The translations under genes were made by a program, and so were the position numbers. Below the pieces are notes generated by a model. The model saw only the letters and a list, made by a program, of their open reading frames with translations. It was not told the DNA's origin and did not search any database. From the NCBI GenBank assembly GCA_015231795.1, contig JADGAX010000001.1, positions 558,001-622,000 of the forward strand: 64,000 nt of DNA, in the 5' to 3' direction. Positions 24,506-27,388 of this stretch are shown here, piece after piece (position 1 is the first letter of the stretch; every line of letters starts with the position of its first letter). Source of the DNA: Alphaproteobacteria bacterium. Its GTDB lineage: Bacteria; Pseudomonadota; Alphaproteobacteria; Rhodospirillales; WMHbin7.

Positions 24506-25681
24506 TTACTTGCTCAGGGTAGCGTAGTATTTGCGTAGAATTTCGACCACTTCGGGGCGCGAGAATTCGGGCGGGATCGGCTCGCCCTTGCTTAGCATTT
24601 CGCGCTGCTTGGTGCCCGAGATATTGATCTGGCTTTCCTTGCCGTGCGGGCAGGTCTTGGCGGTGGCCATGCCGTAGCACTTGGTGCAGAAGAAGGTGAT
24701 GTCGATCTTCAAAGCCTGGGTGACCATGGCGCCCGGCCACAGCTCGTCGAAGATATGCTGGGCGTCGAAGGGGCCGTAGTAATCGCCGACGCCTGCATGG
24801 TCGCGCCCGACGATCAGGTGCGAGCAGCCGAAATTCTGGCGGATCACGGCGTGGATCAAGGCCTCGCGGGGACCGGCATAGCGCATCTCGATCGGATAAC
24901 CGGCCTGGATGACCGTACCCGGCACGAAGTAATTGTCGATCATGGCGCCGATGGCTTCGGTGCGCACTTCGGCGGGAATGTCGCCTTCCTTCAGCTTGCC
25001 CAGCACCTGATGGATGAAGACGCCGTCCGTCACTTCAACGGCAATCTTGGCCAGATGCTCGTGCGAGCGGTGCATCGGGTTGCGGGTCTGGAAGGCGGCC
25101 ACCTTCGACCAGCCCTTTTCGGCGAAGACGGCGCGCGATTCGGCGGGACGCAGATAGAGGTCCTTGTACTTCTCGGGATAGACGCCTTCCGACAGGGCGC
25201 GCACGCGGCCAGCGATATTCACCGCCGCCTGCTCGTTCACCTTGGCGACGCCGGGATGTTTGGGGTCGGTGGTGCGGTAAACGTGGCTGTTTTCGAAATC
25301 GCGGTCGATGGTGTATTTCTCGGACACGTCGATGATGGCCATGATCTCGCCGGTCTCGCCGTCCACCAGGGCGGCTTCCTCGCCGACGCCGATCGAATCG
25401 GCCAGCGCCTGATCGGCCGACAGGGTGATGGGAATCGGCCAGAAGAGGCCATTGGCCATCTTCATGTCGGCGCACACGCCTTTCCAGTCAGCGCTTCCCA
25501 TGAAACCGTCCAACGGCGTATAGGCGCCCATGGCCAGCATGATGACGTCCGACGTCTCGCGCGAGGTCATCGGGATCTTCTTCAAAGAAGCCGCGCGCTT
25601 CAGCTCAGGGCCACGCTCCACTTCGGGCAGCAGCAAAGGCTTCAATGAATCGCCGCCATGCGGAGGCACAAGTTTGGACAT
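24506..25681 (-). CDS. sat: ATP sulfurylase, dissimilatory type
   Basis: 391 residues. It interconverts ATP plus sulfate and adenylyl sulfate (APS) plus PPi. [11 protein letters not shown] (the QxRNPxHxxHE phosphate-binding motif) and [13 protein letters not shown] (GRDHAG) are intact, and CTKC plus a later Cys/His pair near residue 335 matches the zinc site of the homo-oligomeric prokaryotic Sat. This is the one-gene type used in dissimilatory sulfate reduction or sulfur oxidation, not assimilatory CysDN. It leads the operon with qmoAB-hdrCB. In comparable operons aprBA lies between sat and qmo; here the gap to qmoA is 40 bases and aprBA is missing. In an alphaproteobacterium the likely direction is APS to sulfate plus ATP. 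Confidence 0.95.
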
Positions 25682-25781: not shown

Positions 25782-25809
25782 TTATGATATAAAATTACGT
25801 TTTCTGCAA
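25782..25809 (-). promoter_or_regulatory. Candidate sigma-70 promoter for the sat-qmo-hdr operon
   Basis: On the leftward strand TTGCAG (25804-25809) and TCATAA (25782-25787) are separated by 16 bases in an AT-rich patch. It would give a leader of about 95 bases carrying the 25746-25766 hairpin. Sequence match only. Confidence 0.3.
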
Positions 25810-25880
25810 AGGGGAAAAAATATTGGAACCCAAGATTTTGCCAACCCTTTGAATTGCCAAGAGTGGGATTTCCCCTTTGC

Positions 25881-25957
25881 CTAGTGGTCCGATTCCGACA
25901 TTTGCGACCCGTCGCGCCACGCTCGAAAGCAAATGTCGGAATCAACAGGACCACTAG
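25881..25957. repeat. Palindromic repeat element, copy 1 of a facing pair
   Basis: A 77-base hairpin. The left arm is CTAGTGGTCC plus GATTCCGACATTTGC (25 bases unbroken); the right arm is GCAAATGTCGGAATC, a 4-base bulge AACA (25944-25947), then GGACCACTAG. All 25 pairs are perfect; the loop is 23 bases. It shares its architecture with the next element but with a different stem sequence, so the pairing is conserved rather than the bases. Function unknown; REP/BIME-like. Confidence 0.85.
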
Positions 25958-25970
25958 CAACTATGTGTTT

Positions 25971-26048
25971 CTAGTGGAGCTTTTGAATTTGACATTCGAA
26001 ATCAAGCGCGCTGACCGTGGGACTCGAATGTCAAATTCGCTCCACTAG
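25971..26048. repeat. Palindromic repeat element, copy 2, inverted relative to copy 1
   Basis: A 78-base hairpin, 13 bases after copy 1. Left arm CTAGTGGAGC, bulge TTTT (25981-25984), GAATTTGACATTCGA; right arm TCGAATGTCAAATTC plus GCTCCACTAG. All 25 pairs are perfect. The bulge lies on the opposite side from copy 1, so on the reverse strand this copy has the same plan: 10-bp outer stem starting CTAGTGG, 15-bp inner stem, 4-base A-rich bulge on the second arm. Confidence 0.85.
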
Positions 26049-26092: not shown

Positions 26093-27388
26093 TCACAATG
26101 CCTTGGCGACCGGCAGTTCGTCCCACCTCGTCGTCCAGGACCGAGAGCGATTGGCCGACTTGCCCTGCCAGGGCTTGTTCAGTCCGGCGGCCAGGGGCTT
26201 TAAGGTGTCGCGCCCCATGCGGGCATTGATGGCGTCCATGGCGGCCATCAGGCGGCCAGCCTTGTCGCGCTCAAGGCTGCTGCGCCCGAACAAGGAAGGC
26301 GTGGCGCGCCCCTCCTCCACCAGCCCGGCCAGCATCACGCCCGCCTTGGCGAAACGGATGCCGGGCCGCCAGATTTGCGCCGCCAGCCGCTTGGCCTCGC
26401 CGACCAGCAGACAGCCATCCGACGACGGCTCGACCAGATGGACGCCCAAACAGCCCGAATAACGCAGGGACGGTTCGGCAAACCGATTGGCATGGGCATA
26501 AGCCTGGATATAAGCGGCGGCCAGCCCCTCGGCCCTGATCTTCTCGGCGGCCCGGTGCGCAAAGGCGGCCACGGCTTCTTGCAATTCATGGCAACCGGAA
26601 ACCGGCCTGCCGAAGGATCGGCTGACCACGGCGCTTTGGCGGGCGGGCGGCACATCGTCCAGCCCCAGGCAGGGCAAGCCGTTCAACTCGCGGACCAGAC
26701 GTTCGCCGACCACGGTGAAGGCGCGCCTAGCCTTCTTCGGATCAAGTGCGGCCAGATCGCCCGCCGTGCGCACCCCCATGGCGATCAGGCGCGGCGCCAA
26801 CTGGCGGCCAACGCCCCAGACTTCGTCGATGGGAATTTGGGGGAGCACGGCGGCGCGCACGCCTGGCGCCATCAGACTGGCCACCCCTTCGAAGGCCGCC
26901 ACCTTCTTGGCCAGATAATTGGCCAGCTTGGCCAGCGTTTTGGTGGGGCCGAAGCCCACGCCCACGGAAATGCCGGTCCAGCGCGCCACGCGGTCCCTGA
27001 TTTCGCCGCCCAAAGCCAGTAGTTTGCCTTCGTCGCCTCCAAAACCCGGAAAGGCCAGAAAACTTTCATCGACCGAATAGACTTCAAGTTCAGGCGTGAA
27101 GCCGCGCAGCACCTCGGTCACCCGGCGGCTCATATCGCCATACAGTTCGAAATTACCGGAAAAGACGCGCACGCCGTGCGCCGCCACGATCTCTCTGATC
27201 TTGAACAAAGGCGCGCCCATGGGAATGCCCAGCGCCTTGGCCTCGGGGCTTCTGGCCACCGCGCAACCGTCATTGTTGGACAGTACGACGACGGGCACGC
27301 CCTTAAGCGACGGATCGAACGCCTTTTCGCAGGAGGCAAAGAAATTATTGCCATCGACCAGGGCGATGGGAGGCGTGGGAAAGGCCAT
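26093..27388 (-). CDS. umuC: UmuC-type Y-family DNA polymerase
   Basis: 431 residues. [19 protein letters not shown] (first catalytic Asp), [20 protein letters not shown] (UmuC signature) and [10 protein letters not shown] (the SxDE catalytic motif) are intact, followed by a helix-hairpin-helix region ([17 protein letters not shown]) and the little-finger domain. With UmuD' it performs error-prone translesion synthesis as Pol V. The start is supported by a purine-rich GAAAGG upstream. It is the last gene of an SOS-controlled leftward operon umuD-small ORF-umuC. Next to its 3' end lie the two palindromic repeats. Confidence 0.94.

Follow-up and report, generated by a model that had tools for sequence, protein, structure and literature searches.

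The window, by which we mean the whole 64-kb stretch of DNA analysed, carries a 168-bp element at 25881-26048 that consists of two facing hairpins, 77 and 78 nt long, with 13 bp between them. The element lies between umuC and sat, 200 bp upstream of sat. Both flanking genes are on the minus strand; an earlier note on this DNA had placed the structure 3' of umuC and upstream of sat. The features are as follows.

24506-25681, minus strand: sat, ATP sulfurylase
25881-26048, plus strand: whole element, very probably a two-hairpin IS630-type MITE; found entire at unrelated sites elsewhere; G003, a genome of the same genus, lacks it at this site
25881-25884: CTAG left corner, C/TA/G insertion site with TA presumed duplicated (G003, which lacks the C4 copy, has only one CTAG there; IS630 ends are CTAG)
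25881-25905, plus strand: left terminal inverted repeat (TIR) CTAGTGGTCCGATTCCGACATTTGC, outer 10 plus inner 15 nt, without insertion (20/25 to an IS630 end of Martelella sp. NC20)
25891-25895: GATTC, a CcrM-type GANTC, at left TIR position 11 (the same place as in one end of the IS630 partners)
25906-25928, plus strand: left loop, variable (from loop versus stem-arm rates in recent copies of genome G799)
25929-25957, plus strand: left hairpin inner arm, with 15-nt inner stem, AACA bulge (25944-25947) and 10-nt outer stem
25958-25970, plus strand: linker CAACTATGTGTTT, 13 bp, IHF-like
25971-25999, plus strand: right hairpin inner arm, with 10-nt outer stem, TTTT bulge (25981-25984) and 15-nt inner stem
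26000-26023, plus strand: right loop, variable (same basis as left loop)
26024-26048, minus strand: right TIR CTAGTGGAGCGAATTTGACATTCGA, read on the minus strand
26045-26048: CTAG right corner, second target copy (same basis as left corner)
26093-27388, minus strand: umuC, with domains IMS, IMS_C and DUF4113

The left hairpin (25881-25957) pairs 25881-25890 with 25948-25957 in a 10-bp outer stem and 25891-25905 with 25929-25943 in a perfect 15-bp inner stem, with the AACA bulge on its 3' arm. The right hairpin (25971-26048) has its outer stem at 25971-25980/26039-26048 and a perfect 15-bp inner stem at 25985-25999/26024-26038; its TTTT bulge is on the 5' arm and reads AAAA on the other strand. 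Both 4-nt bulges sit on the arm facing the partner hairpin, that is, on the inner arms. The region has a fold energy of -95 kcal/mol, compared to a shuffled mean of -54.9 (sd 4.07; z -9.85), and none of 200 shuffles folds as well. Stem lengths, one-sided bulges and spacing are all as the earlier note had described them. CTAGTGG occurs four times in the window, at the four hairpin corners. Further GANTC sites in this copy are found at 25939-25943 and 26021-26025.

A perfect 12-bp inverted repeat, GCAAAGGGGAAA / TTTCCCCTTTGC at 25806-25817 and 25869-25880, with its arms 51 nt apart, adjoins the element upstream of sat. G003 retains the two arms, so the repeat predates insertion of the element; it may be a regulatory site or a sat operon leader.

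Recurrence of the unit and its insertion sites

The earlier note took the hairpins for two separate elements. Instead, the 168-bp unit recurs whole, together with its linker. A BLAST search of plasmids with the region found the entire unit (25881 to about 26049), at 74-79% identity and with unrelated flanks, in Martelella, Rhizobium, Ochrobactrum and Agrobacterium. A second copy in the source genome, at 94% (C4:255958-256127), shares one CTAG with a partial copy that comes after it; the same genome has a fragment of another subfamily (C3:417200-417270). One genome of the same genus has a copy at 88%. These further copies, within the source genome and in its congener, bear out the note's suggestion of a mobile family, here an interspersed one. 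The element has no coding gene, is shorter than about 200 bp and is interspersed at unrelated sites, as expected of a MITE. The source genome also has a left hairpin on its own, from a different TIR subfamily (CAGTGTCCCGATCC...), at locus L262 (G000:C3:416700-417800, about 501-580 of that interval); it is split at its CTAG by an apparent IS5-type insertion sequence with a transposase-like ORF.

A covariance model of the element (R1) found it in 20/384 other genomes of the class. A draw across the phylum, for which the class of non-matching genomes is not fully listed, gave matches only in members of Alphaproteobacteria. In one Phenylobacterium-containing family, 14/60 genomes carry the element. 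Some genomes have 14 to at least 150 model matches each, with at least 150 candidates in both Bradyrhizobium sp. LHD-71 and Hyphomicrobium sp. CS1BSMeth3; these numbers exceed those of the elements present, since a single copy is often matched on both strands.

A pattern built from the linker and CTAG corners was scanned over 84,980 genomes and returned at least 120 stretches. Parsing of these together with loci found before left 113 units that had two hairpins by a first test and 102 by a stricter one. The records listed for hairpin-bearing units are alphaproteobacterial or are unclassified Proteobacteria MAGs; one Metabacillus match and most viral matches of the scan lack the hairpins. A phage origin was considered and set aside, as the scan of viral contigs gave only seven contigs, two of them with real units. 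Unit length in the family is 163-170 bp, with forms of 119-133 bp in some genomes. The short forms, about 119-133 bp (L242, L244, L245, L259, L260, L265, L266), have almost no loops and a similar inner-arm bulge and linker.

Empty sites are found in G003 for both copies of the source genome. At the site of the C4 copy, G003 lacks the element and has a single CTAG, while the C4 copy is bounded by CTAG on either side, as expected if insertion at TA duplicates this dinucleotide. G003 also lacks the element at the window site, but has CGAG in place of the expected CTAG, and the flank alignment is imperfect. The TA duplication is therefore clean at one site only, the window site being compatible but imperfect. 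Abutting copies (L031:5962-6165, and tandem pairs in G799 and G806, with a 4-bp overlap) share a single CTAG, which suggests that the CTAG ends of the element themselves serve as insertion targets. Roseibium sediminicola has 19 copies comprising 11 distinct sequences that differ on average at one position; this is a recent amplification.

Conservation of the paired arms

Because the two hairpins are halves of one element, comparison of left with right is not family covariation, and the pair on which the earlier note had based its claim of covariation falls away. Compensated changes do occur in other copies, which keep both the stems and the one-sided bulge. Among 21 diverse copies, 97.5% of stem cells are paired, and 35/50 stem pairs have changed on both sides while still pairing. 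Double-changed cells number 188, as against 52 after shuffling, and the signal is lost when the partner is slid by one column.

Compensated pairing of this strength could mark a structured RNA, one of the readings named in the earlier note. It might be an sRNA, a riboregulator or an mRNA-stabilising hairpin pair, selected for its fold as RNA. Transcription of the element is conceivable, given that it follows umuC and precedes sat on the transcribed strand of both genes. However, the 188 double changes stand beside only 13 one-sided, G-U-type cells and 26 unpaired cells among 1049, as a DNA palindrome would give, and G-U pairs make up about 1.3% of paired cells. Such scarcity of RNA-style intermediates is unusual and fits a DNA palindrome. 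The rarity of G-U pairs counts against an RNA, as do insertion at unrelated, non-syntenic sites and the failure of any Rfam family to reach threshold or come near its gathering score. We consider selection for an RNA fold very unlikely; a secondary effect of the element on neighbouring mRNA is possible.

The bulge is better placed on the inner arm in 101/102 copies for the left hairpin and in 102/102 for the right, and is A-rich on the left and T-rich on the right. Recent copies in G799 show about 0.05 changes per site in loops compared to 0-0.017 in stem arms, some 3-15 times more in loops, although the extraction pattern fixes some corner bases and biases the outer-arm rates low. The two loops (25906-25928 and 26000-26023) are weakly complementary across the family, with a mean score of 6.1 against 5.34 (sd 0.14) when permuted. 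Loop-loop (kissing) pairing was rejected as an account of this: only 50/93 exceed their subfamily mates, and the short forms are almost loopless. We judge the complementarity to be a relic of the inverted arrangement.

A mobile element is also compatible with pairing that owes nothing to selection for hairpins. Arm-to-arm correction templated by the hairpin (quasipalindrome correction) might keep the arms matched, or the arms may simply be copies of the same TIR. Nearly all changes between subfamilies are perfect double changes, and the recent copies of one genome contain two double-kept changes where about 0.04 would be expected by chance. Yet the same recent copies contain 13 single-sided changes, the 4-base bulge is kept on the inner arms only rather than corrected away, and the inner arms are about 3-15 times more conserved than the loops, even if the search pattern fixes some corner positions. 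This origin of the pairing is a credible possibility that falls somewhat short of likely.

Terminal repeats, linker and candidate mover

The outer arms resemble the ends of IS630-family insertion sequences. The left arm of the Roseibium element matches a Rhizobium IS630 end at 24/25 positions, and 29/30 bases agree with the end of genes annotated as IS630-family on plasmids of Rhizobium and Agrobacterium. A query of the CTAGTGTCCC type matches a Roseomonas IS630 end at 24/25, and its class also matches a Komagataeibacter IS630 end. The CTAGTGG class, to which the window copy belongs, matches ISAr1-like IS630s; a plasmid of Martelella sp. NC20 carries both a MITE of this class and a matching IS630, and the arm of the Martelella NC18 MITE agrees at 23/25 with an IS630 end on the NC20 plasmid. 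For the window copy, agreement with the nearest IS630 end found is 20/25 for the left arm and only 17/25 for the right. Overall, 92/102 left arms score at least 19/25 against an end from a set of ten IS630 elements, whereas no shuffled arm reaches 19/25. The matched IS630s are 1150-1185 bp long and end at C/TA/G, and a partner transposase, P0001, has DDE_3 and HTH domains. A first search for TIRs around IS630 genes of class genomes gave mostly chance pairs; plasmid IS630 loci were more productive.

We therefore regard the element as very probably a non-autonomous IS630-type MITE, composed of two hairpins and a 13-bp linker and moved in trans by an IS630-family transposase. The outer hairpin arms would be TIRs like those recognised by IS630-family (Tc1/mariner-like) transposases, and such an enzyme would cut the element out and paste it into C/TA/G sites, duplicating TA. 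The inner arms would be TIR copies disrupted by four extra bases and presumably unusable as ends, which would restrict movement to the complete 168-bp unit as opposed to one hairpin.

Another reading named in the earlier note is a REP/BIME-like family with a REP-associated transposase (RAYT). Such a Y1 (HUH) enzyme would recognise the hairpins as single-stranded DNA, with the facing pairs as BIME-like units. Facing hairpins, one-sided mismatch, an invariant foot tetranucleotide and structure conserved with compensation do recall BIMEs. But no Y1 transposase (PF01797) was found in 7/12 carrier genomes, namely its own and six others, and the ends match TIRs of the DDE-type IS630 family. REP units are short hairpins of 20-40 nt, while the hairpins here, at 77-78 nt, lie inside one fixed 168-bp pair with CTAG at both ends of insertions, and solitary hairpins are rare among the listed matches. 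A REP/BIME origin is accordingly hard to credit.

Of the 12 carrier genomes checked for a DDE_3 transposase, six have one and six, including the source genome, do not. Copies in the source genome look stranded, since no DDE_3 transposase was found there. With half of the carriers checked in the same position, mobilisation of the MITE by such an enzyme is an inference. In three high-copy genomes (G799, G801 and G802) and a recently amplified one (G805), DDE_3 goes undetected beside 74 to at least 150 model matches, with near-identical copies in one of them. It is puzzling that copies can be numerous, and even very recent, in genomes where no transposase is detected. Transient supply from plasmids, or the loss of collapsed IS contigs from draft assemblies, might explain a missing transposase; supply in trans by an IS630 transposase is possible, the matching IS and the MITE being on the same plasmid in Martelella sp. 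NC20.

The linker is 13 bp in 111/113 copies, a length that the sampling pattern favours. The IHF consensus is YAANNNNTTGATW, and 8/21 model-found copies match it at 8/9 linker positions, compared to 0.6% of shuffled linkers; the window linker fits it less well than the family consensus does. By this resemblance, IHF might bend the linker and bring the two hairpins together. GANTC is present in 101/102 copies, usually at TIR position 11; the IS630s examined have it at TIR positions 11-15 of one end. Through such a site, CcrM methylation, and hence replication, could be linked with transposase binding; Dam control of IS10 offers an analogy for methylation that could tie transposition to replication.

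The near-constant GANTC and IHF-like linker might also be expected of a domesticated site, useful to the host, for instance in controlling adjacent genes through CcrM or IHF, and copied by transposition, and the window copy does lie upstream of sat. Against this, copy number varies between genomes from none to more than 100 matches, only 20/384 other class genomes have the element, and the window position is empty in G003. Domestication thus seems very improbable.

Comparison with known repeats

Alphaproteobacterial IS630 elements (ISAr1-like and relatives, about 1.15-1.19 kb) share with the MITE its CTAG ends, the TIR classes CTAGTCACCC, CTAGTGTCCC and CTAGTGG, and GANTC in one end. They differ in encoding a DDE transposase and in having single TIRs and no terminal hairpins. 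RIME and Bru-RS, other intergenic palindromes of rhizobia and Brucella, are possible leads. Correia/NEMIS repeats of Neisseria (PMC2229807) are likewise MITEs with TIRs and TA termini, and the long form has an IHF site, but they form one stem-loop from their two ends, and sequence and host are unrelated. The closest functional precedent is RUP of Streptococcus pneumoniae, a MITE derived from IS630-Spn1 (PMC2229807). RUP is also gene-less, about 100-170 bp long and targeted to TA, with IS630-family-like ends; it has simple terminal repeats, whereas the present element has two full hairpins, both built from paired TIR copies, plus bulge and linker.

The CcrM-associated intergenic repeats (CIR) of Caulobacter and Brucella, reported by Chen and Shapiro in 2003, are alphaproteobacterial, intergenic sequences of about 110 bp with two arms and a linker, TA ends and GANTC sites at or partly in the terminal loop, as described in PMC2229807. 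By that description, CIR have been known since 2003 with their mobility and their link to CcrM sites unexplained and no IS relative known. The element resembles them, again by published description, in its intergenic location, its two long inverted-repeat arms joined by a linker, its TA termini and its GANTC. It differs in length (168 bp versus about 110) and in the main position of GANTC, which is the inner-stem base rather than at or partly in a terminal loop; in this same comparison by description, the 119-133-bp forms narrow the gap in length.

A tentative and rather doubtful proposal is that the element and CIR form one superfamily extending across the alphaproteobacteria, with ends that follow those of IS630 transposases. 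IS-derived CcrM sites would then tie transposition to replication and methylation, the IHF linker would pair the ends, and extruded hairpins would act in transposition. For double-arm repeats of unexplained mobility, the element supplies a likely mover, the IS630 family, and a target, C/TA/G; GANTC within the transposon ends themselves is a proposed reason for the CcrM sites, and an IHF-like linker is added to the picture.
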